A DNA stretch of 64,000 nt, taken from positions 39,742 through 103,741 of the forward strand of contig CACHMT010000004.1 in the NCBI GenBank assembly GCA_902581005.1, read 5' to 3'. Made by a program: the position numbers and the translations under genes. Of the stretch, positions 2,353 through 47,377 are shown one piece after another; the first letter of the stretch is position 1; each line of letters starts with the position of its first letter. Below the pieces are notes generated by a model that had not been told where the DNA came from, did no database searches, and was given only the letters and a program-made list of their open reading frames with translations. Source of the DNA: an uncultured Alphaproteobacteria bacterium (GTDB taxonomy: Bacteria; Pseudomonadota; Alphaproteobacteria; Rhodobacterales; Rhodobacteraceae).

Positions 2353-3660
2353 ATGAAATTTATAAGGACTAAAGCAGTCGCACTTTTCTTGCTCTTTTTC
2401 TCGATATCGCCATCCTTCGCCAAAACAGAGATTCATTGGTGGTATGGAAATAGTGGGTTCTTGGGAGACGTAATTATAGAAATAGCGAAAAGATTTAATG
2501 AGTCTCAAGACGATATCGTAGTTATTCCTACTGGCAAAGGAAGTTATGAAGATAACTTATCGGCTACAATTGCAGCTTACAGAGCTGGAGACCATCCACA
2601 CTATACACAGGTCTACGATGCAGGCGCCGCTATCATGGTTGCTCAAGTGAAAAATGGAGTGGTAATTGGTTTTGAAGAAATGGGGGAAAAATACGGCATA
2701 GACGTAAATGCAGACAACTACATTCCCCAAGTAAAAAACTTTTATGCCGATGCTGATGGCAAAATGATTGGAGTACCCTTTAATAGTTCAACATGTATCA
2801 TGTATGCAAACATGGATATACTGAAAAAAGTTGGAGTTGACGTACCGACGACTTATGAGGAATTTGAAGAAATAGCTCAAAAGATTAAAGACGCAGGATA
2901 CATTCCGCTCGTTCAAAGTCATGATCCCTGGATTTGGACTGAAAACTTTTTTTCAAGGCACAATTTATTAATGACAGATGGAAACAATGGATTTGATGAC
3001 GTTCCAACCAAAACTTTGTTCTCTGAAACTCCGGAGTTTATAACTCATTGGACAAAGGTAAAAGAATGGCATGATAAAGGTTGGTATGCCTACAAGGGAA
3101 GAGGATGGGGTGATAACCAAGCTCCGTTTAACGCAGGTGAAGCGGCTTTTTGGTTTGGCTCTTCTGGTTCTTTTGGTGGAATAAAGGATTTACCAATTAA
3201 TTTTACTACCAATCAAATTCCTTACTGGAGCTCAATTACAGGCGGCAAGGCATATCCCACTTTTATCGGTGGCGCGGCAAACTGGATCTTAAATGGCCAT
3301 ACTGAAGAGGAATACGCTGCGCTAGCAAAGTTCATCAAGTTTATGGGCTCACCCGAAATGGACCTTTATTATCATAATACTACTGGTTATACAGTCGTGA
3401 CCAAAGGTGGTGGACAGCTTGCAGAAACAATAAATTTTTACAGAACTTCACCGTATCATAAAACCGCTCCAGAACAGTTAAATCTGGAAGGCGCAACTAT
3501 TCCTGGTGGATATAGGGCAGGAAATTGGCCACAAATAAGGGAGGTTATTTATGAGAATTTCCCAAAAATCTTGACTGGTGAGCTTTCAGTAGAAGAAGCT
3601 ATGAAAAGAACCGATGAAGGAGCATCAAAATTGCTTGCTCAGTTTGCTAAGACTTTGTAA
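2353..3660 (+). CDS. ugpB: sn-glycerol-3-phosphate ABC transporter substrate-binding protein UgpB
   Basis: Signal peptide, family 1 extracellular solute-binding protein sequence (EIHWWYGNSG...), followed by two permeases and a UgpC-like ATPase. Confidence 0.85.
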   Translation: MKFIRTKAVALFLLFFSISPSFAKTEIHWWYGNSGFLGDVIIEIAKRFNESQDDIVVIPTGKGSYEDNLSATIAAYRAGDHPHYTQVYDAGAAIMVAQVKNGVVIGFEEMGEKYGIDVNADNYIPQVKNFYADADGKMIGVPFNSSTCIMYANMDILKKVGVDVPTTYEEFEEIAQKIKDAGYIPLVQSHDPWIWTENFFSRHNLLMTDGNNGFDDVPTKTLFSETPEFITHWTKVKEWHDKGWYAYKGRGWGDNQAPFNAGEAAFWFGSSGSFGGIKDLPINFTTNQIPYWSSITGGKAYPTFIGGAANWILNGHTEEEYAALAKFIKFMGSPEMDLYYHNTTGYTVVTKGGGQLAETINFYRTSPYHKTAPEQLNLEGATIPGGYRAGNWPQIREVIYENFPKILTGELSVEEAMKRTDEGASKLLAQFAKTL

Positions 3661-3678
3661 GCCAATCAAAAATAATAT

Positions 3679-3707
3679 GGAGGGAGGGGTTTTCCTCCCT
3701 CCTTTTT
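3679..3707 (+). terminator. Intercistronic hairpin ugpB/ugpA (attenuator or 3' stabiliser)
   Basis: GGAGGGAGG-(6 nt)-CCTCCCTCC-TTTTT. Confidence 0.75.
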
Positions 3708-3711
3708 GCTA

Positions 3712-4590
3712 ATGAAAAAAGTACAATTTAAATCCAAATATACCCAATATATTTTTTTAGCTCCAACGCTAATAATTATATCAATTTTTCTTTATCTTCC
3801 TATAGTGCAAACGTTTAGAGATGCATTCACGACGCAAGATGCGTTCGGCTTCGGTAGGTTTTTTGCAGGATGGGACAACTTTAAATTTGTGCTATCAGAT
3901 CCCTCATATCTTGTAGCACTTAAATTCACTTTTATTTACATATTTGTCATAACTGTTATCTCTTGCTCTTTAGGGCTGTTATTGGCGGTTCAGGCCAATA
4001 AAGTTATACATGGAAAAAGCGCTTACAAGACCCTTTTGATTTGGCCGTATGCTATAGCTCCTGCAGTTGTTGGGGTAACTGCTCAATATTTTTTTAGCGA
4101 AAGGTTTGGTATCCTATATGCTCTATTTAATTCTCTATGGGGGTTTGACTGGACCGCAAATATTTTTGATGCCTATATCTACTTATTCATAGCGGGATCT
4201 TGGAAACAAATCAGCGCGAACTTTATTTTTTTTCTTGCCGGGTTGCAAACGATACAAAAATCAGTTATCGAAGCTTCTTTAATTGATTGCAGAAGCAGTC
4301 TGCGTCGGTTCTGGACAATCACTTTCCCCCTACTAATGCCAACAACGTTCTTTCTCGTGATTATCAATATCACTTATGGTTTTTTCGACACCTTCGGGAT
4401 TATTGATACTACGACGATTGGAGCGCCTTCAGGGGAAACTAAAACTCTAGTATATAAAGCATATATAGACGGTTTTCGAGGATTAGATTTGGGAGCTGCG
4501 GGTGCTCAGTCAATAATTATGATGCTATTAGTACTCATCATAACAATAATTCAGTTTCGTTACATAGAAAGGAGGATTCACTACAATTGA
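3712..4590 (+). CDS. ugpA: sn-glycerol-3-phosphate ABC transporter permease UgpA
   Basis: MalF/UgpA-like permease with EASLIDC-type EAA loop; ATG at 3712 preferred over the TTG at 3706. Confidence 0.85.
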   Translation: MKKVQFKSKYTQYIFLAPTLIIISIFLYLPIVQTFRDAFTTQDAFGFGRFFAGWDNFKFVLSDPSYLVALKFTFIYIFVITVISCSLGLLLAVQANKVIHGKSAYKTLLIWPYAIAPAVVGVTAQYFFSERFGILYALFNSLWGFDWTANIFDAYIYLFIAGSWKQISANFIFFLAGLQTIQKSVIEASLIDCRSSLRRFWTITFPLLMPTTFFLVIINITYGFFDTFGIIDTTTIGAPSGETKTLVYKAYIDGFRGLDLGAAGAQSIIMMLLVLIITIIQFRYIERRIHYN

Positions 4591-5441
4591 TGATCAATCG
4601 TCTTACTCAAATGTTTGCACACTTTATATTACTATTGGGAGTTTTACTTATGGTAATTCCTATTTGGCTAGCCTTTACAAGCTCAACCCATGATAATGTG
4701 ACCCTAATAACAGAAGGGATGCAGTGGTACCCAGGACCTCTATTTATCGAAAATTATGACGAGGTGTTGAACGAAAAAGGGGGGTTTTCAGAAGAAATAA
4801 CAGCTACTGGCATGCTGATAAATAGTTTTATAATGGGGCTAGGGATCGCCACACTTAAGGTTATTATTTCGATGATGGCTGCTTATTCACTCGTTTATTT
4901 CCGATTTAGATTAGCCACACCCATTTTCTGGTTTATCTTCATAACTTTGTTAGTTCCCTTAGAGGTCAGAATATTTCCCAGCTACAAAATTGTATCTGAT
5001 ATAGGCTTGACAAACAGCTATACTGGCCTCGTACTCCCATTAGTTGCCTCGGCAACTGCAGTTTTTTTCTTTAGACAATTTTATAAGTCAGTTCCTGATG
5101 AACTTCTTGAGTCAGCCAAGCTTGATGGAGCTAATAGCTGGAGATTTTTTATTGACTTTTTAGTGCCCCTTTCAAAAACGATGATTGCAGCGATGTTTAT
5201 TTTTATGTTTGTTTTTGGATACAGCCAATACTTATGGCCTCTTTTAATGACTACTGATGAGAAGTACTGGACAGTTGTAATGGGGATGAAATTAATCTAT
5301 GTCGAATTATACGAAGGTGTGTCTTTACCCAGAGTGGGGCAAAGGTTTGCGTATATTATACTATCAATAATACCGCCCGTTCTCATTGTTGTTTTGTTGC
5401 AACGTTGGTTTATTAAGGGTCTTATACAAACGGAGAAGTGA
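4587..5441 (+). CDS. ugpE: sn-glycerol-3-phosphate ABC transporter permease UgpE
   Basis: MalG/UgpE-like permease, ESAKLDGANSWRFF EAA motif, overlaps ugpA by 4 nt. Confidence 0.85.
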   Translation: MMINRLTQMFAHFILLLGVLLMVIPIWLAFTSSTHDNVTLITEGMQWYPGPLFIENYDEVLNEKGGFSEEITATGMLINSFIMGLGIATLKVIISMMAAYSLVYFRFRLATPIFWFIFITLLVPLEVRIFPSYKIVSDIGLTNSYTGLVLPLVASATAVFFFRQFYKSVPDELLESAKLDGANSWRFFIDFLVPLSKTMIAAMFIFMFVFGYSQYLWPLLMTTDEKYWTVVMGMKLIYVELYEGVSLPRVGQRFAYIILSIIPPVLIVVLLQRWFIKGLIQTEK

Positions 5442-6497
5442 ATGAGTTTTATAAACCTTAAGAACGTTGTAAAAGTATATCCAGATGGAACCCAGGCTAT
5501 TTTCAACTCTTCTTTATCGATTGAGAAGGGTGAATTAGTTGTCTTTGTTGGGCCCAGCGGTTGTGGAAAGTCAACATTACTTAGAATGATAGCTGGGTTA
5601 GAAGACGTAACGGATGGAGAAATAGACCTAGATGGAAACAGAATTAATGAAATAGACCCCTCTGAGAGGGATATAGCAATGGTTTTCCAGAATTATGCCT
5701 TATACCCCCATATGTCAGTCTATAATAATATTGCTTATGGCCTAAGAAGTAGAGGAATAAAAAAACTGGAAATAGAAGCACAGGTTACAAATGTTTCAGA
5801 ATTACTTCAAATTGGCGATCTATTGAGTAAAAAACCAGGTCAACTATCAGGAGGACAAAGACAACGCGTTGCCATGGGGAGAGCAATAGCTCGTGATCCA
5901 AAAGTATTTTTATTCGATGAACCACTTTCAAATTTAGACGCAAAACTACGGGTCCAGGTGCGACTGGAAATAAAAAAATTACAAAGAAAAATGGGAACGA
6001 CTAGTATTTTCGTTACTCATGATCAAACTGAAGCAATGACCCTGGGTGATCGATTAGTTGTTATGAATAAAGGAGTGATGGAGCAAGTGGGTACTCCAAT
6101 GGAAATTTATTATCACCCCAAAACTAAATTTGTAGCAGAATTTATCGGCACTCCTAGCATGAATTTCATCACAGGCAGTATAAAAGATAAGACCTTTAAA
6201 GCTTCGAGTTTCGCAATACCAGCTAAATATGAAGATAAAGATGATGTTATCCTAGGAGTGAGGCCTGAAGATATATCAATCACTAAAGCTACAACCGGTG
6301 TCAAATGTAAGGTGGAGCTTATTGAAAAACTTGGTTCGAGTACCGTCATATACTGTGTTGATATGAAGGAAAATCAACTTTGCGTAAGTACTCAATCACG
6401 TGCTAGCGTGGAGGTAGGAGACACCATACACATATCTACAAATAATAAAGCCTTGCATTTTTTTGATAGGGAAACTTCTAAAGCGTTAACTAAATAG
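5442..6497 (+). CDS. ugpC: sn-glycerol-3-phosphate ABC transporter ATP-binding protein UgpC
   Basis: Walker [25 protein letters not shown] signature, C-terminal TOBE-type region. Confidence 0.85.
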   Translation: MSFINLKNVVKVYPDGTQAIFNSSLSIEKGELVVFVGPSGCGKSTLLRMIAGLEDVTDGEIDLDGNRINEIDPSERDIAMVFQNYALYPHMSVYNNIAYGLRSRGIKKLEIEAQVTNVSELLQIGDLLSKKPGQLSGGQRQRVAMGRAIARDPKVFLFDEPLSNLDAKLRVQVRLEIKKLQRKMGTTSIFVTHDQTEAMTLGDRLVVMNKGVMEQVGTPMEIYYHPKTKFVAEFIGTPSMNFITGSIKDKTFKASSFAIPAKYEDKDDVILGVRPEDISITKATTGVKCKVELIEKLGSSTVIYCVDMKENQLCVSTQSRASVEVGDTIHISTNNKALHFFDRETSKALTK

Positions 6498-9118: not shown

Positions 9119-9964
9119 TTATTTCCCACTCTTAACAGATCCATCAAGTATCTTTAAGCGAGCATAACTGCTAATTTGTTCTACGAACAATATTAAAACA
9201 AACATTAAGCCTATTACTACAACAGCTCTATCGTAAGCCATCCAATTAAAAAGACTGTTTAATTCCATTCCGATTCCACCAGCACCAACTAGACCTAACA
9301 CCACTGATCCTCTTACAGACTTTTCTAAGGCGAAAAGCGATGTCGTTATAAAGCCAGGCATGGCGGCAGGAATGATTGCTGAAAAAGTACTGTCTAGCTT
9401 TGACGCTCCACTACTCTCTATACCTTCAGCTGCACTCCTTTCAACATCCTCCATCTCTTCAGCAAAAAATCTACCTACAAATCCTATTGTGTCTATTGCA
9501 ATCGTTAATGTGCCTGCAAAAGCTCCAAGCCCTACAACCATTACAAATATTATTGCCCATACTAAATCAGGTATTGTTCGCATAAATGTTATTAGAAACT
9601 TTGCAACTACTTGAAGCATTCTTGCCGGGATGCTATTTCCGAATAAGCCTCTTGAGGCCATCAGCGCAAATAAAAAACCTACAATTATTCCTAAAAACGT
9701 ACCAAAAATTGCCATTTGAGCCGTCTCAATTAAGAGCAAAATATACCTGTTAAAATCATTCCAGCTTAATCTATGCTCGCTAATAGGAGGAAAGGCTTCA
9801 CTGAGAAACCTACCAATGTACTCACTGCTTCCAAATAATTTGCTAAAGGAAAAACCGGAGCCATCAAGAGCCCACACCATAATCAAAAAGAAAACAATAA
9901 TGGACATATATTGAAAGGATGAGATTTGTTCAAATCTTTTTGGGGTTTTCATTTTTTGGTTCAT
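9119..9964 (-). CDS. phnE: PhnE-type phosphonate/phosphate-family ABC transporter permease
   Basis: PhnE-family sequence (RTIPDLVWAIIFV, VLGLVGAGGIGMEL). Confidence 0.8.
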   Translation of the reverse strand: MNQKMKTPKRFEQISSFQYMSIIVFFLIMVWALDGSGFSFSKLFGSSEYIGRFLSEAFPPISEHRLSWNDFNRYILLLIETAQMAIFGTFLGIIVGFLFALMASRGLFGNSIPARMLQVVAKFLITFMRTIPDLVWAIIFVMVVGLGAFAGTLTIAIDTIGFVGRFFAEEMEDVERSAAEGIESSGASKLDSTFSAIIPAAMPGFITTSLFALEKSVRGSVVLGLVGAGGIGMELNSLFNWMAYDRAVVVIGLMFVLILFVEQISSYARLKILDGSVKSGK

Positions 9965-9969
9965 ATCAA

Positions 9970-10737
9970 TTAAACGAATCTTACAGAGCTGTCGTATTGT
10001 GCAATTAATTTTTTTTGATCTATCATTTTACTTGCTTTGAAGAAACTTATTTCACCGTCTTTTAAAGCTAAAACTTTGTCAGAATATTTTACTGCATCTT
10101 CAACATTGTGGGAGGTAAATATGACTGTCATCTTTTCTTTTTTACATAGTTCTGTGAGAAGCTCCATAACTGTTTTTGCAGCTACTGGGTCAAGGCTAGC
10201 GACTGGCTCATCAGCAAGTAATAATTTGGGTTTTTGCATCAGAACTCTTGCTATTGCAACTCTTTGAGATTGCCCTCCTGAAAGGGTGTCAACTCGTTTC
10301 ATCGCAAGGTGAGATAAATTCACCTTCCGTAGGCAATCCATTGCCCTTGACCTAGAAGCTTGGGGTGCCAGAAAATGAAACCATCGTGTTACTCCCTTTA
10401 AACCGCTAGTGATATTTCCAAAATCTCCATGAATAACATTAGACAACACACTCAGTCGAGGAACTAGATTATGCCGTTGAAAAATAAACCCTACATCTCT
10501 TCGTATTTGTCGTAGCCGATGACTATTTAAATTTGTTATTTCCTTGTCAAAAACTTTGATACTTCCACTCGATGGCTCAATTAAGCGGCTGCAACATCTC
10601 AGCAAGGTAGATTTACCTGCTCCATTAGAACCAATTATCGCTAATAAACTTTGCGAATTAACGCTAAAAGAAAGACCTTTTAATACAGATTCGCTACCGA
10701 AGCTTTTTTTTAAATCTTTTATTTCTAAATCAATCAT
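9970..10737 (-). CDS. phnC: PhnC-type ABC transporter ATP-binding protein
   Basis: Walker A GSNGAGKST, LSGGQSQRVAIARVLMQKPKLLLADEPVASLDP. Confidence 0.85.
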   Translation of the reverse strand: MIDLEIKDLKKSFGSESVLKGLSFSVNSQSLLAIIGSNGAGKSTLLRCCSRLIEPSSGSIKVFDKEITNLNSHRLRQIRRDVGFIFQRHNLVPRLSVLSNVIHGDFGNITSGLKGVTRWFHFLAPQASRSRAMDCLRKVNLSHLAMKRVDTLSGGQSQRVAIARVLMQKPKLLLADEPVASLDPVAAKTVMELLTELCKKEKMTVIFTSHNVEDAVKYSDKVLALKDGEISFFKASKMIDQKKLIAQYDSSVRFV

Positions 10738-10743
10738 ATATCA

Positions 10744-10769
10744 AGCGCCCTATACTAGCATAGAGCGCT
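10744..10769 (-). other. Intercistronic hairpin phnD/phnC (first transporter)
   Basis: AGCGCcCTAT-ACTAGC-ATAGaGCGCT, one mismatch. Confidence 0.5.
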
Positions 10770-10786
10770 CTCCATACATCTATGGA

Positions 10787-11665
10787 TTAGTCTTGAATAT
10801 CAAATTCGGGCAATCCAGCTGTCCTGTACATGGCTCTTACTACATCATAGTCCGAATCATTAACTTCCAGCAATCTTGTGCCAATATATTTATCATTGGC
10901 TGGCTTACCTTTATCATCAAGTCCAGCTAAAATTCCAGCAATCAGCGAATCTTCATTATCTTTCATTGCCTTGGTTACTTTATCTATTTCAGCCTGCGTT
11001 AAATGACCTCCACCCATCATCATATCGTAGGGCAGATCACCTGACCTAGCTAACACCTTGAACTGACCTTGATTTTCGGGCGTTCTATTATATTTGATCC
11101 AAGAGCTAATTCGGACACCAATTGCCGCTGTATCACCTCTCTCTAGCCCAGCATGTTGCAATGCCTTCTTTGTATGGATTACTTTGATGTCTTTCATTGG
11201 GTCTACTCCATGGTCCATCATCACTTGCATCGGACAAAAATGTCCAGATGTCGACCCAGGCTTAGCAAAAGAGACTGCTTTACCTTTTAAATCTTCCATC
11301 TTCATTATTCCTACTCCTGTCTTAACGACAATACCGCAGTAATAATCTGGTCTCGCAATCGCAATCATTGCTTGAGAGTTTGTAAGCTTGTTAATTGCCA
11401 CATACTCTGCAGGACCTGTTATTGCAAAATCTAATTTCTTTCCTCTCAATGCCTCTGCTGTTGCAGTTTGATTGCTTACGGCAAAAAATTCAAAAGTATC
11501 ACCAGTGGCTTTTTCTAAAGCGTCCTTGAATGGTCCCCACTCAGAGATAAGAGCATCCATTCCTTCAATATCAGTAACAGCCATTTTGTAATTTTTCGCT
11601 GAAACTACTGAGCCTATCCCTAGGGATAAGCAAATTAACAATATAGTTTTAATAACAAATTTCAT
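10787..11665 (-). CDS. phnD: PhnD-type phosphate/phosphite/phosphonate substrate-binding protein
   Basis: Signal peptide; DFAITGPAEYVA and KAVSFAKPGSTSGHFCP PhnD-like motifs; ATG at 11665 with AAGGAGTT ribosome-binding site preferred over listed start. Confidence 0.8.
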   Translation of the reverse strand: MKFVIKTILLICLSLGIGSVVSAKNYKMAVTDIEGMDALISEWGPFKDALEKATGDTFEFFAVSNQTATAEALRGKKLDFAITGPAEYVAINKLTNSQAMIAIARPDYYCGIVVKTGVGIMKMEDLKGKAVSFAKPGSTSGHFCPMQVMMDHGVDPMKDIKVIHTKKALQHAGLERGDTAAIGVRISSWIKYNRTPENQGQFKVLARSGDLPYDMMMGGGHLTQAEIDKVTKAMKDNEDSLIAGILAGLDDKGKPANDKYIGTRLLEVNDSDYDVVRAMYRTAGLPEFDIQD

Positions 11666-11714
11666 AATTAACTCCTTGCTTTTCCCAATTATTAAAAAGT
11701 TCATTAACGCTTTT

Positions 11715-12224: not shown

Positions 12225-13085
12225 GTGGATAATCGGTTTGATGGCCTCAAGATCTATAGAAGTATCTGGATTTCAGATATACATCTTGGTACTCCTGGCG
12301 CCAGTACAGATCAACTTCTGCGTTTTTTAAAGTGTACGCGATCTGAAAATTTGTTTTTGGTCGGAGATATCATCGACGGTTGGCAATTGAAAAAGCGTTG
12401 GTATTGGCCACAAGCTCACAATGACATCGTGCAAAAACTCCTCAGAAAAGCTCGTCATGGTACGAATGTAGTGTTTATTCCAGGAAACCATGATGAGGCA
12501 GCGCGTCAATTTGTTAATGTGACCTTTGGTGAGATCAAAATATGCCTTGACTACATCCATGAAACTGCTGACGGTAAGAGACTGTGGATCGTGCATGGTG
12601 ATCTTTTTGACCATGTCATTCAACATGCGCGCTGGTTAGCGTATATTGGTGACAAAGCTTATCAGATTTTGCTTCGCGTGAATCGCTGGCTAAATATTTG
12701 GCGTGACGCATTCAAACTGCCTTATTGGTCGTTTTCTCAATACTTAAAACTTAAAGTCAAATTGGCAGTTTCATTCATTTCTGCATTTGAACATGCAATG
12801 GTAACAGAAACTCGAAGGCGCGGATGTAGCGGAATTATATGCGGGCATATACACAAACCAGAGTTAAAAATTACAGACGGAATCATATACGGAAATGACG
12901 GTGATTGGGTAGAATCTCGCTCTGCACTGGTAGAGCATTACGACGGTAAATTGGAATTACTAAATTGGGATAAAATTTCAAAAAATATTGCTTCAGTGGC
13001 TGATGTATCATCAGTGAAAGACGGGATTGATGGGGGGCCAACAGCAGCGCTTGGTGAACTACATAGCAAGAGTAACAGTCCGTGA
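12225..13085 (+). CDS. plcP: PlcP-like metallophosphoesterase (phospholipase C for lipid remodelling; LpxH-like fold)
   Basis: SDIHLGTPG, GDIIDGWQL, GNHDE, HGDLFD, GHIHKPE motifs; translationally coupled to a glycosyltransferase as in known plcP-agt pairs; GTG start. Confidence 0.75.
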   Translation: MDNRFDGLKIYRSIWISDIHLGTPGASTDQLLRFLKCTRSENLFLVGDIIDGWQLKKRWYWPQAHNDIVQKLLRKARHGTNVVFIPGNHDEAARQFVNVTFGEIKICLDYIHETADGKRLWIVHGDLFDHVIQHARWLAYIGDKAYQILLRVNRWLNIWRDAFKLPYWSFSQYLKLKVKLAVSFISAFEHAMVTETRRRGCSGIICGHIHKPELKITDGIIYGNDGDWVESRSALVEHYDGKLELLNWDKISKNIASVADVSSVKDGIDGGPTAALGELHSKSNSP

Positions 13086-14194
13086 AAATTTTAATTATCA
13101 CAGATGCGTGGTACCCACAAGTCAATGGAGTTGTACAAACACTAACAAAAACACGCGATCATTTGGTCCAGATGGGGCATAAAGCTGAACTTATTACCCC
13201 TGAATCGTTTCGTACGATTCCTTGTCCAACTTATCCGGAAATTAGACTTTCAATTTTTCCAGGAAAAAAGATTGCTGAAAAAATTCAGGTGTCTCAACCA
13301 GACGCAATTCATATTGCAACTGAGGGGCCGCTTGGTCTGGCTGCCCGGCGTTACGCAACTTCACATAATTTAGATTTCACAACTGCATTCCACACCCGTT
13401 TTCCAGAGTATATACGTTCTAGGACTAAATTGCCGCTTGGAGCTACATACGCACTCTTGCGTTGGTTTCACAGTCCGGCTAAAAATGTGATGGCACCAAC
13501 CAACACTGTTATAAGAGACCTAGAAAAATGGCAAATCGGAAACCCTGTATTGTGGCCGCGAGGGGTTGATCTTACCATTTTTAATCCATGTAACAGAAAC
13601 GTTAAGAAACCCACTGGAAACATCGAAAAGCTAAACGCGAGTATCGCAAAACTGGATAACGCAACGAAACCTGTTTTTATTTATGTTGGGCGAGTAGCTG
13701 TTGAGAAAAATCTTAGTGGATTTTTAGATTTGGATCTACCAGGTGAAAAACATGTTGTTGGAGAAGGGCCCGCTCTTAAAACACTGAAGAAAAAATATCC
13801 CAAAGTTATTTTTCATGATGCGCATCCAACGGAGAACTTACCGGCATTCTACAATCGCGCGGATGTTTTTGTGTTTCCTAGTCGAACAGATACTTTTGGC
13901 CTTGTTCTGTTAGAAGCAATGGGTTGCGGTCTGCCTGTAGCAGCTTTTCCAGTCACGGGTCCAATAGATGTCGTAGGTGAATCTGGTGCAGGCATCTTGG
14001 ACAATGACTTAAAGAAAGGCTGTCTAGCTGCCCTAAAAATTGACCGAAAAATTGTTCGTATGCATGCGGAGAAATTCTCATGGAAGTCGGCAACGGATAT
14101 ATTTTTTAGCCATCTAACCAATGCTCACAAGATTGTAGACAGGTATCAGATATCTAAAAAGCCTTATAAGACCAATTATAGGTTTGGCCCCTGA
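13082..14194 (+). CDS. Agt-like family glycosyltransferase (predicted glycolipid synthase)
   Basis: GT-B fold motifs, ITDAWYPQVNGVVQT N-terminus, FPSRTDTFGLVLLEAMGCGLPV C-terminal motif; GTG start overlaps plcP stop. Confidence 0.75.
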   Translation: MKILIITDAWYPQVNGVVQTLTKTRDHLVQMGHKAELITPESFRTIPCPTYPEIRLSIFPGKKIAEKIQVSQPDAIHIATEGPLGLAARRYATSHNLDFTTAFHTRFPEYIRSRTKLPLGATYALLRWFHSPAKNVMAPTNTVIRDLEKWQIGNPVLWPRGVDLTIFNPCNRNVKKPTGNIEKLNASIAKLDNATKPVFIYVGRVAVEKNLSGFLDLDLPGEKHVVGEGPALKTLKKKYPKVIFHDAHPTENLPAFYNRADVFVFPSRTDTFGLVLLEAMGCGLPVAAFPVTGPIDVVGESGAGILDNDLKKGCLAALKIDRKIVRMHAEKFSWKSATDIFFSHLTNAHKIVDRYQISKKPYKTNYRFGP

Positions 14195-15071
14195 GATATT
14201 CTGTGACCACATTCCGGTTTTCCATTTCAGCTAGTTCGGAACTGTGTATGGGGGGGCGCATCGTGACCGTTAAATTTGTCCCAATTCTTCTACAAATTTC
14301 TCTAAACATCAGAGAATAACCAAGAGTAAAGCTTACTCTTCTTGCAATTTGAAATAACGCTGAATTACGTCCCTCGAAGAAGAACGGAATAGTAGTTGTG
14401 TCAGGCTGCAATGCTAATTTCGCAACAAATGTTTTCCACGGCGCATCACTCGCAGTCCCAAATATATTTGGCGCCAATGATATGGCACCTGCTGGGAAGA
14501 TGATAAGTGCTCCGCCATTTCTGAGATGCTCCAACGCTCTGCGACGAGACTCCATATTTGTTTTAAGCGCAATTTTAGTCTCTGCAAAATCTATTGGCAG
14601 AATTTTATCCATTACCGCTGGTGCCTGTCTCAATACCCTGTGGGTAATGATTTTATAGTCATGCCGCACCTCGGCCATAATTGAACACAAGGCAAGTCCA
14701 TCTATGACTCCATATGGATGATTAGCGATGGTCACCACCCGTCCAGTAGACGGTATGGATGCCATTATTCCATTTGAAACCTCTCGACGAACATCTAGTT
14801 CGATACGCAGTCGGTCAAGTGCATCTGACCAAAAATATTCTGGATTTAGATTGTCATTTACATAGTCAAAATACAGTTTTTCTATACGCGGTTGACCCGT
14901 TAATTTTTCTAAGTAGCGGATTATTTTGTTGGGAATTACACCCATTTCCCCGTCGGCGAATGAAAACACAGGGTGTGTCTGACTGCTATTTTGCAAAATC
15001 AATACTCCTAGCCTGTTGATAGTTAAAAGATGTAACAAATAATTGATGAATTTATGAAAAATTAATGACAT
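14154..15071 (-). CDS. PlsC/OlsA-like lysophospholipid acyltransferase
   Basis: NHPYGVIDG acyltransferase motif, FPAGAIS block; convergent overlap with the glycosyltransferase gene. Confidence 0.6.
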   Translation of the reverse strand: MSLIFHKFINYLLHLLTINRLGVLILQNSSQTHPVFSFADGEMGVIPNKIIRYLEKLTGQPRIEKLYFDYVNDNLNPEYFWSDALDRLRIELDVRREVSNGIMASIPSTGRVVTIANHPYGVIDGLALCSIMAEVRHDYKIITHRVLRQAPAVMDKILPIDFAETKIALKTNMESRRRALEHLRNGGALIIFPAGAISLAPNIFGTASDAPWKTFVAKLALQPDTTTIPFFFEGRNSALFQIARRVSFTLGYSLMFREICRRIGTNLTVTMRPPIHSSELAEMENRNVVTEYLRGQTYNWSYKAF

Positions 15072-15162
15072 CCACGTGAGTAAGTTCTCAAATTTTGATT
15101 GTACTTTTTCAACAAATTTAGATTGAATAATAAAATTATTAACTCAAATGATGATTTAAAAA

Positions 15163-15191
15163 TTTTCATCAAATTGTCATCAATCTTTAAC
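15163..15191 (+). promoter_or_regulatory. Pho-box-like array in the intergenic duplicated element (copy 1)
   Basis: TTTTCAT-CAAA-TTGTCAT-CAAT-CTTTAAC followed after 12 nt by GACAAT (-10-like). Confidence 0.45.
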
Positions 15192-15215
15192 ATTTAAAAG
15201 TTAGACAATCTGTAA

Positions 15216-15275
15216 ATACACGCATGTATTTCCCTCCCAACTGGGCCGTTGTAAGCAGACGGCCCTTTTCTTTTT
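15216..15275 (+). ncRNA. Candidate PhoB-controlled small RNA (about 60 nt)
   Basis: Pho-box-like array, GACAAT -10-like element, ATACA-CGCA-TGTAT hairpin, TTTCCCTCCC segment, GC-rich terminator with T-tract; no + strand ORF at this site. Confidence 0.4.
15243..15275 (+). terminator. Intrinsic terminator
   Basis: GGGCCGT-(9 nt)-ACGGCCC followed by TTTTCTTTTT. Confidence 0.8.
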
Positions 15276-15419
15276 GATACATTGATGTAACAGCTAATCA
15301 ATATATAAAATTGGACTTTAGAAGCGTGTTGTAAGACTATTTTTAATTTTTATTTGACTAAATTATTAGTATTGCTAAATTTTGGCGCGATTGAAATTAA
15401 ATCCTCAAAAGGAAATAAA

Positions 15420-15842
15420 ATGTCGAAGGAAAAAGACGCTGATACCATCACTGAATTAGGTGAAGACGGAAAATTACATAATATAACTACTAAAGCAGGA
15501 AGACTAGCAATGGAGTTAGCGTCTGAAAAAAAGAGGCTTGCTCAAGAGCTAGAAGAATTACAAGGCGAGTACGATGACATTAAACCTCTTACGCCTACTG
15601 GTACAAGAGATTGGTATGTTAAATGGGGAGCCATGCTATTGTGTGTATTAGGAGTATTTCTTACATCAGGAAAAATGTATATTTTGGGGCAATTGTGTTA
15701 TTTCTTTAGTGCCATCGGATGGATATATGTCGGCATGCAATGGAGCGACAGAGCACTAATGATTGGATCCGCGATATGTGGTACTGCAGTTGCCATGCTG
15801 TTGATAGACAATCCCGACTTGTATCTGCTTTTTTCAAGGTGA
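15420..15842 (+). CDS. Hypothetical small membrane protein (coiled-coil N-terminus, C-terminal TM segments)
   Basis: ATG at 15420 after AAAGGAAATAAA ribosome-binding site; acidic charged N-terminal half, hydrophobic C-terminal half. Confidence 0.55.
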   Translation: MSKEKDADTITELGEDGKLHNITTKAGRLAMELASEKKRLAQELEELQGEYDDIKPLTPTGTRDWYVKWGAMLLCVLGVFLTSGKMYILGQLCYFFSAIGWIYVGMQWSDRALMIGSAICGTAVAMLLIDNPDLYLLFSR

Positions 15843-15920: not shown

Positions 15921-16274
15921 CTACCCTTTCTTGCTTAAAGGTCTTTTACCCCTTGCATGAGACATTTCTATAATTTCATTCTTCTCAATTTTTACAAACC
16001 CCAAGATCACTCCATCAGGTTCGACATGATCTGGAACCGAGTGTTGGTAAACTATAATTTTATCGTTTTCGAAATGACAAGTTATTTTTCCAATATTTGA
16101 TCTTGGCTGTTCTTCGAACCAGGCGATAGTTTCCGACTTATCACGTTTATTTTTTGTAAGACTTGATTGAGTTATTGATCGCCAAAAAAAATTTTCAGAC
16201 AAATATTTTTTAAGAAGAGATACGTCTCCATTATTTGCGGTTTCAAACATTGCTTCAAGTTTCTTAAAATTCAT
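15921..16274 (-). CDS. SnoaL/NTF2-like family protein
   Basis: Short alpha+beta sequence with NNGDVSLLKKYLSENFFW... resembling the SnoaL-like fold. Confidence 0.45.
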   Translation of the reverse strand: MNFKKLEAMFETANNGDVSLLKKYLSENFFWRSITQSSLTKNKRDKSETIAWFEEQPRSNIGKITCHFENDKIIVYQHSVPDHVEPDGVILGFVKIEKNEIIEMSHARGKRPLSKKG

Positions 16275-16310
16275 AGCCGACTCCTTTGCCTTATAAAATG
16301 AAAAAAATAT

Positions 16311-16551
16311 GCAACAAATTGTTGATGAATTTATGAAAAATTAATGACTTGTACGTAAGAAAGTTCTCAGATTCTATCTATATTTTTTCAATTAATTTAG
16401 ATTGAATGAAAATTATTAACTCAAGTGATGGTTTAAAAAATTTTTATCTGAATGTAATAAATCTTAACATTAATAAGATAGATAATACCCAAACAGTCGC
16501 GTGTATTTCCCTTCCCACTGGGCCGTTTTCTTTTTGATACATTAAAGTAAC
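16311..16551 (+). repeat. Imperfect direct repeat, copy 2 (terminator hairpin arm deleted)
   Basis: Same shared blocks as copy 1; ACTGGGCCG joins directly to TTTTCTTTTTGATAC. Confidence 0.85.
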
Positions 16552-16671
16552 TTACCATCTGCTGCTCACTCCAAGAACATGCTACATGAGCATCCCATGC
16601 GTCCCATGCGTTGAAAGGCTAGACCAAGCGGTAGCTATAGGTAATGGCAAAATTATGAATTTTACTCAAAA

Positions 16672-26035: not shown

Positions 26036-26064
26036 ATGACATTTATATGACAAAAATATGACTA
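26036..26064 (-). promoter_or_regulatory. Pho-box array at the 5' end of the Sel1-repeat gene
   Basis: Minus strand TAGTCAT-ATTT-TTGTCAT-ATAA-ATGTCAT, three strong heptamers. Confidence 0.65.
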
Positions 26065-37704: not shown

Positions 37705-37733
37705 CTTACATATTTTTGTCATAATTTTTTTGT
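37705..37733 (+). promoter_or_regulatory. Pho-box-like array upstream of GAPDH-arsJ
   Basis: CTTACAT-ATTT-TTGTCAT-AATT-TTTTTGT, 22 nt before ATG. Confidence 0.55.
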
Positions 37734-37754: not shown

Positions 37755-38759
37755 ATGAAAATAATTATTAACGGGTTAGGAAGAATTGGGAAGCTTGTCT
37801 TTAGAAGACTATGCGATGAGAACCTCCATAAAAATATTTTAATGGTGAATGAGAAAGCAGGGTCTGCTTCTGACCAAGAGTATTTTTTAAGATATGACAC
37901 CGTTCATGGGACTTGGGGTGATGACCTTTGTTTTGAAAATGGTTGTCTTAATTACAAAGATCATTCTATAGCTGTGATGACAGAGGGGTCTATAGAGAGT
38001 ATTAGTTTTCCTAAATCTGAAAAGTTTCTGGTAGTAGATTGCACTGGCGTGAATAAATCAGAAAAATTACTTGAGCCATACTTCGAAAGAAAGGCATCAT
38101 ACGTATTAATTTCTGCCCCTATAGAATCATCCAATGTCCAGAATATTGTTTATGGAATAAATCATCAATCCATAGACACTAGTGCTTATAAAATATTTAC
38201 AGCCGCAAGCTGTACCACTAATTGCCTCGCGCCTATTGTAAAAGTTCTCGAAGAAAATATTGGAATAAAGCATGGGTCAATTACAACTATCCATAACATT
38301 ACAAACTCTCAAACTATTGTTGATGCTCCAAAAAATAATTTAAGGCGATCGAGATCCGGAATTAACTCATTAATCCCCACGACCACGGGCTCAGCTAGGG
38401 CAATTTCATTAATTTATCCAGAGCTTAAAGGAAGGCTGAATGGTCATGCTGTAAGAGTTCCTCTCTTGAACGCATCATTGACTGATTGTGTTTTTGAGAT
38501 GAAACAGAATGTAGAAGTTGATAAGATTAATCAACTTTTTAACGAAGCTTCAAATACCTATTTGAGAGATATCTTATCTTATGAAGAAAAACCCTTGGTG
38601 TCATCTGATTATGTTAATAATCCCCACTCAGCAATTATCGACTCTCTTTCAACTATGGTCGTAAATAAAACCCAGCTTAAGATATATGCCTGGTATGATA
38701 ATGAATGGGGATACGCCTGTAGAATGGTTGACATCTTATCTAAATTAATCCGAGACTAG
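37755..38759 (+). CDS. Glyceraldehyde-3-phosphate dehydrogenase paired with ArsJ (arsenate detoxification type)
   Basis: INGLGRIGKLVFR, AASCTTNCLAP catalytic Cys, WYDNEWGYACR; directly upstream of ArsJ. Confidence 0.85.
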   Translation: MKIIINGLGRIGKLVFRRLCDENLHKNILMVNEKAGSASDQEYFLRYDTVHGTWGDDLCFENGCLNYKDHSIAVMTEGSIESISFPKSEKFLVVDCTGVNKSEKLLEPYFERKASYVLISAPIESSNVQNIVYGINHQSIDTSAYKIFTAASCTTNCLAPIVKVLEENIGIKHGSITTIHNITNSQTIVDAPKNNLRRSRSGINSLIPTTTGSARAISLIYPELKGRLNGHAVRVPLLNASLTDCVFEMKQNVEVDKINQLFNEASNTYLRDILSYEEKPLVSSDYVNNPHSAIIDSLSTMVVNKTQLKIYAWYDNEWGYACRMVDILSKLIRD

Positions 38760-46681: not shown

Positions 46682-47377
46682 ATGAAACATAAAATTTTGC
46701 TTGTTGAAGATGATAAGGACATTCAAGAAATTATAGAATACAATTTTTCTAAGGAAGGCTACGAGGTAACTAAATGCTCTGATGGTGAAAGCGCTATTGA
46801 CTTAGTTAGGCATGAGACACCGGACCTTGTCATTTTGGATTGGATGCTTCCAAATCTATCTGGTTCGGAAATATTAAGGCAAATACGTTCATCCAAGAAA
46901 TTAAAAAAAATACCTGTCATAATGCTCACAGCGCGAACTGAAGAAAGTGATAAATTGAGAGCTTTCGACACCGGAGCTGATGACTATATAACCAAGCCCT
47001 TTTCAAACTCTGAATTAATTGCCCGAACGAAAGCTCTTCTTAGACGCGTGAGTGAAGACAGTTTTACAGACACTTTAAATTTTCATGACATTGAATTAAA
47101 CCGTGATAACAAAAGAGTATTTAGAGGTAAAAAGGAAATAAAATTAGGGCCTGTGGAATTTAAGTTACTTGAAGTTTTTCTAATGAGGCCAGGACAAGTA
47201 TTTAACAGGGAGCAATTGTTAGATAAAGTCTGGGGCAATCAGATCTACGTTGAGGAAAGAACTGTTGATGTCCATGTGGGGCGTTTACGAAGAGCGCTCA
47301 ATAGGGGTAAAGTGAAAAAGGATCCTATACGAACTGTAAGAAGTGCAGGTTATTCACTTAATGAAAACTATAGTTAG
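46682..47377 (+). CDS. phoB: PhoB phosphate response regulator
   Basis: Receiver domain (LVILDWMLPN) and winged-helix output (RTVDVHVGRLRRAL). Confidence 0.95.
   Translation: MKHKILLVEDDKDIQEIIEYNFSKEGYEVTKCSDGESAIDLVRHETPDLVILDWMLPNLSGSEILRQIRSSKKLKKIPVIMLTARTEESDKLRAFDTGADDYITKPFSNSELIARTKALLRRVSEDSFTDTLNFHDIELNRDNKRVFRGKKEIKLGPVEFKLLEVFLMRPGQVFNREQLLDKVWGNQIYVEERTVDVHVGRLRRALNRGKVKKDPIRTVRSAGYSLNENYS

Follow-up and report, generated by a model that had tools for sequence, protein, structure and literature searches.

The best reading of a compact intergenic element in this genome is a lineage-specific small RNA of the alpha-r8 type that would be activated by PhoB. Based on sequence comparison, we consider it probable that this predicted RNA of ~60 nt, which is related to alpha-r8, is switched on by PhoB and acts in trans to repress mRNAs with GGGAGG-type ribosome-binding sites. 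Throughout, "the window" denotes the whole 64-kb stretch of DNA that was analysed.

A predicted small RNA within a phosphorus island

The genome comes from an AT-rich genus of Alphaproteobacteria with small genomes, and the names of its close relatives (AG-899-B02, AG-892-M03, AG-426-E23 and others), together with gene content, suggest a marine origin. The small RNA locus lies inside a phosphorus island (Table 1) with ugp genes, phn genes (including the C-P lyase genes phnH and phnL), plcP-agt, pst genes (pstS and pstA) and phoB; the plcP-like phosphoesterase and the glycosyltransferase serve lipid remodelling. The adjacent acyltransferase gene, whose true start probably lies downstream of 15071, is faced by a divergent Pho box; the alignments of its clade-B matches (L269, L270, L271, L272 and L273) reach as far as query residue 259 of 262 and contain one TAG stop. 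Among the 22 genus genomes, many of them incomplete, PhoB scores above its cut-off in 16 and Hfq is encoded in 15, as it is in the genome under study; the window itself carries phoB, whose product is the likely activator. Further strong Pho boxes in the window, at 26036(-), 7546(-), 25234(-), 33987(-), 27568(+) and 37705(+), lie mostly directly 5' of genes, several of which are phosphorus genes; the Pho-box-like site at 37705-37733(+) directly precedes a GAPDH gene (37755-38759) that exceeds the ArsJ-associated cut-off.

Table 1. Features of the small RNA locus and its surroundings, in window coordinates
Feature	Position	Strand	Basis or remark
ugpBAEC	2353-6497		
phnCDE, phosphonate uptake	9119-11704		
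plcP-like phosphoesterase	12225-13085		
Glycosyltransferase (agt)	13082-14194		
Acyltransferase, OlsF N-terminal/GlsA-like (ornithine or glycine lipid synthesis)	14154-15071	-	
Divergent Pho box facing the acyltransferase gene	15043-15071	-	score 16.5
Three-unit Pho (PhoB) box, 11-nt periodicity	15163-15195	+	score 18.2, clade conservation
Pho-box unit TTTTCATCAAA	15163-15173	+	
Pho-box unit TTGTCATCAAT	15174-15184	+	
Pho-box unit CTTTAACATTT	15185-15195	+	
-10-like hexamer GACAAT	15204-15209	+	sequence
7-bp hairpin AAAUACA-CGCA-UGUAUUU	15214-15231	+	fold
Predicted alpha-r8-type small RNA, ~60 nt	15216-15275	+	RF00519 and R1 matches; 5' end placed from the -10
Unpaired CU-rich anti-SD tract, UUUCCCUCCCA region	15230-15240	+	pairing probability, conservation
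Intrinsic terminator GGGCCGUU...GACGGCCC UUUUCUUUUU	15243-15275	+	terminator scan, fold
DUF6552 membrane protein gene, beyond the terminator	15420-15842	+	
Copy 2, decayed duplicate including the promoter region	16290-16560	+	alignment
phoB, likely activator	46682-47377	+	TIGR02154, 311.9 bits (cut-off 296.2)

An earlier note, made from the letters of this DNA, had described at 15163-15275 a compact unit composed of a Pho-box-like array, 12 nt leading to a -10-like hexamer, a short hairpin, an apparently unpaired CU-rich segment and a strong intrinsic terminator. Every one of these parts was recovered at its position; the interval omits the divergent Pho box at 15043-15071(-) and the decayed copy at 16290-16560. 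The Pho box is the third best in the window, and its score of 18.2 exceeds the best scores in 15 order-2 Markov sequences of 64 kb each, which averaged 16.8 and reached at most 17.4. This predicted PhoB box sits at the -35 distance from the putative promoter, as in the Pho regulon, and the 12-nt spacing (15192-15203) is as had been claimed, but the hexamer differs in the other clade. Positions 15211-15275 are predicted to fold at -18.3 kcal/mol (z = -3.0; one shuffle in 200 did equally well) into the 7-bp hairpin and a terminator stem at 15243-15265, with an unpaired probability of 1.0 at most positions of the CU-rich tract (15230-15238); the terminator was also found by a scan, with 8 pairs, 6 of them G-C, plus TTTTCTTTTT. 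The claim that no plus-strand gene needs this terminator holds because the DUF6552 frame (ATG 15420) starts beyond it. A 17-codon frame runs open from ATG 15224 to a TGA just past the T-run and could be taken for a short coding gene, which we regard as extremely improbable, given that the frame is without a ribosome-binding site, crosses the terminator and is missing from the paralogous copy of the element upstream of a bioY-like gene (described below).

Relation to the alpha-r8 family

Small RNAs of the alpha-r8 family are widespread in Alphaproteobacteria. Their Rfam model, RF00519 (suhB), comprises MmgR and the Caulobacter RNAs SisA-D, which combine a weak hairpin, the 10-mer UUUCCUCCCU in single-stranded form and a terminator (PMC12559287, PMC7143759). 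At the gathering score, Rfam gave no match anywhere in the 64-kb window. Positions 15211-15280 aligned with RF00519 from end to end (model 1-77) at 22.5 bits, short of the 41 bits set for gathering, and RF00519 was the sole bacterial small RNA family to appear even at E <= 5; a match to the S15 leader (22.3 bits, 15367-15470) and snoRNA matches, all sub-threshold, were treated as chance. A second model, R1, was built from 20 alpha-r8 RNAs (9 from other families, 11 from the genus) with the Pho type left out. With R1 the window RNA reached 27.9 bits, at E = 1.3e-5 for a search of 256 kb and 8e-5 for its own genome, and exactly four places in that genome were hit at E <= 0.01, namely the tandem type, the E type, the window RNA and its bioY paralogue. 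Other alpha-r8-like RNAs of the genus mostly fall under the gathering score too, with one reaching 42.1 bits. Since R1 recovers the RNA without the Pho type in its training set and the RF00519 score stays under the gathering score, we call the window RNA alpha-r8-related and not a certified member of the family. The likeness to alphaproteobacterial trans-acting small RNAs that the earlier note had proposed is thereby upheld and sharpened to alpha-r8 (RF00519, MmgR/SisA-D).

Compared with the family trait by trait, the window RNA has a Rho-independent terminator at its 3' end and a weak hairpin just 5' of the core, which is partly broken in some bioY copies; the core, predicted to be unpaired, has one C more than the family core and is degraded in the bioY paralogue; and the N-formylglutamate amidohydrolase gene that neighbours the main alpha-r8 copy (optional for siblings) is absent, the neighbours here being the acyltransferase and DUF6552 genes. 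MmgR of Sinorhizobium meliloti shares with it the hairpin, the unpaired CU-rich core, a short ACUNGGGCC link and the intrinsic terminator, whereas the two differ in the core (UUUCCUCCCU in MmgR/RF00519 versus UUUCCCUCCCA), in length (77 versus ~60 nt) and in control, which is by NtrC/AniA for MmgR (PMC8401924) in place of a Pho box. A survey of 2008 assigned no PhoB site to its prediction of MmgR (as sm8) and does not name the region of this RNA among those that rise when phosphate is short (PMC2573895). The genome of Caulobacter crescentus likewise encodes several alpha-r8 siblings, SisA-D, whose promoters are unrelated and which have an anti-SD motif in common, but Pho control is not reported in the accessible part of that account (PMC12559287); a sponge RNA, CrfA, is known in Caulobacter.

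CU-rich anti-SD motifs occur in several alphaproteobacterial small RNA families (PMC7143759), among them AbcR1/AbcR2 (alpha-r15), where they lie in unpaired regions; a response of abcR1 to nitrogen and phosphate stress in combination is on record (PMC8829014). An assignment of the window RNA to AbcR/alpha-r15 or NfeR1/alpha-r14 is nevertheless highly improbable, in view of the exclusive appearance of RF00519 among bacterial small RNA families at E <= 5 and of the architecture of AbcR RNAs, which have three stem-loops, two motifs and another family model, compared to two stem-loops and one motif here.

Copies, conservation and distribution

Copy 1, the window RNA, is present in 8 of the 22 genus genomes (many incomplete), always accompanied by the acyltransferase of the island; one more genome (G011) has the acyltransferase on a contig that ends just before the position of the small RNA. 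Its CU tract is identical in all eight. Divergence between clades A and B amounts to 1.5% in the Pho box, 1.7% in the hairpin and tract, and 5.3% in the terminator, compared to 37.5% in the spacer that includes the -10, 9.5% in the region between the boxes and 5.8% downstream; the region of the divergent Pho box (15029-15075) differs by 2.7%.

Copy 2, present in five genomes, is 80% identical to copy 1, promoter region included; its upstream hairpin is broken, most of its terminator hairpin is deleted, it shows no fold (z 0.03), and R1 does not detect it. Behind this decayed copy lies a 117-aa frame (15921-16274(-)), faced by a Pho box at 16333(-) and without a match in Pfam or NCBIfam. Copy 3, upstream of the bioY-like gene in four genomes, looks intact: the Pho box (~0.2 different from copy 1) and the terminator (0-3%) are kept and are its best-conserved parts, and its other flanks are lost (0.5-0.6 different, downstream 0.62). 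In the genome under study its hairpin (AAAUACG-UUU-CGUAUUU) keeps 7 pairs; some bioY copies, this one among them, show an A-U to G-C exchange at the loop-closing pair relative to copy 1, other changes lead to G-U, and covariation is slight. The CU tract of copy 3 is degraded (UUUUUCUUCC, UUCCCUUC and UUUUCCUUU), and conservation of the anti-SD sequence therefore does not extend to the whole Pho-type set. The conservation of hairpin and CU segment on which the earlier note had staked its proposal thus stands for copy 1 and fails for the CU segment of the bioY paralogue.

Two alternatives bear on these copies. The terminator separates the Pho box from the DUF6552 gene, which follows on the same strand after 145 nt and, within the aligned part, holds its position in the other clade too; the element might thus be an attenuator or leader, in which a PhoB-started transcript runs toward this gene and the terminator controls read-through. 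Yet copy 3 sits upstream of an unrelated gene and retains box and terminator although its downstream DNA has diverged; the element is therefore no leader of a single gene. At the sequence level, copy 3 shows that the Pho box and the predicted RNA move together and are not tied to any one gene downstream. Promoter-like sites at 15282-15311 and 15354-15381 also intervene between the terminator and the DUF6552 gene, no alternative antiterminator was found, and alpha-r8 RNAs are stand-alone, all of which makes attenuation quite unlikely. The second alternative is a promoter segment duplicated passively and spreading with the divergent Pho promoter, its RNA without a regulatory role and its terminator merely ending PhoB-driven transcription. 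The loss of hairpin and terminator from copy 2 with retention of the flanks, as well as the degraded CU tract of the bioY copy, would agree with such a history, but hairpin and tract of copy 1 are conserved as well as the Pho box, and the RNA is similar to a regulatory family; we judge passive duplication unlikely. A PhoB-activated, alpha-r8-type RNA remains the preferred reading, against which the sub-gathering RF00519 score, the extra C in the tract, the unconserved -10, the degraded bioY tract and a target search that gave no convincing candidate (see below) have to be counted.

In other alphaproteobacteria, 98 alpha-r8 loci showed no comparable upstream Pho box (best score 10.6 versus 10.5 for a downstream control; 12.3 for the window). 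A model of the Pho type, R2, matched only the genome under study among 241 genomes drawn from the class, and weak relatives may have escaped this search because its filters were strict. Two exact 19-mer matches in Rhodospirillaceae MED667 are without a terminator and look coding, and those in Bacteroidetes and Planctomycetes (R1 <= 10.7 bits) were taken as chance. The accessible parts of the literature report PhoB-mediated phosphate control for no alpha-r8 RNA.

The genus carries several other alpha-r8-like RNAs, each type with different upstream DNA. One type, which scores 27-42 bits with RF00519, lies behind ACGTTAACGT-containing DNA and often has another CU-rich segment ~106 nt after it; further types include an E type and, marked by AUACCUCCCU, an M type. 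At L027:2200-2375(-), L026:6010-6195(-) and relatives, the alpha-r8-like RNA is followed 106 nt later by a second conserved CU-rich segment (TTTCCTCCCCAACTGGTAC, with CTGTG/CACAG arms), and the DNA upstream contains ACGTTAACGTCACGTTA, which is also present with another RNA (L209) and suggests a common regulator. A short RNA type with CATGAAA..TTTCATGTTCATACCTCCCTGTTGACTAAAGCCGA and a strong terminator (L139:3129-3200(-), L073-L079) recurs in several genus genomes and matches alpha-r8 weakly.

Proposed mode of action and targets

Upon phosphate scarcity, phosphorylated PhoB would occupy the tandem box and activate transcription from about position 15216; the RNA would end at the terminator, its U-rich 3' end probably being held by Hfq, and the exposed UUUCCCUCCCA would pair with GGGAGG-type ribosome-binding sites, so that the mRNAs carrying them would be repressed. 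Repression at such sites under phosphate starvation is likely because of the analogy with SisA, which represses through the family 10-mer, with its anti-SD signature, by pairing with an mRNA 5' region, assisted by Hfq (PMC12559287). The genome under study has 61 matches to the pattern GGGAGG-N2-10-ATG and 32 to the reversed pattern, and many of the former do not lie 5' of a gene; a target search of this genome that combined the pattern with duplex energies gave no convincing target. The best duplex with a long frame (G000:C5:61939, molybdopterin-type oxidoreductase-like, named by eye; -16.7 kcal/mol) is too weak to claim.

Between ugpB and ugpA, at window positions 3679-3707, lies a perfect, terminator-like hairpin, GGAGGGAGG/CCTCCCTCC, with five T after it. 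The small RNA tract is complementary to its 5' arm (duplex of -16.7 kcal/mol), and pairing of the CCCUCCC tract with the GGAGGGAGG arm could promote read-through into ugpAEC, a PhoB-coupled antitermination of glycerol-phosphate uptake besides the blocking of ribosome-binding sites, which we consider very unlikely. The conservation of this hairpin is uninformative because the region, located in three relatives, is 99.3-99.7% identical there over 300 bases. These sequences (L261, L259 and L263, compared with window 3500-3800) retain that identity even in clade B, whereas the small RNA region is ~7% different, a discrepancy that possibly reflects recent recombination of the island.

If the preferred reading is true, a phosphorus-scavenging lineage has placed a carbon/nitrogen-linked riboregulator under PhoB, and the Pho regulon would thereby gain a repressing arm beside the neighbouring scavenging genes. 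The genus, moreover, is a natural set of alpha-r8-like siblings with differing upstream sequences.
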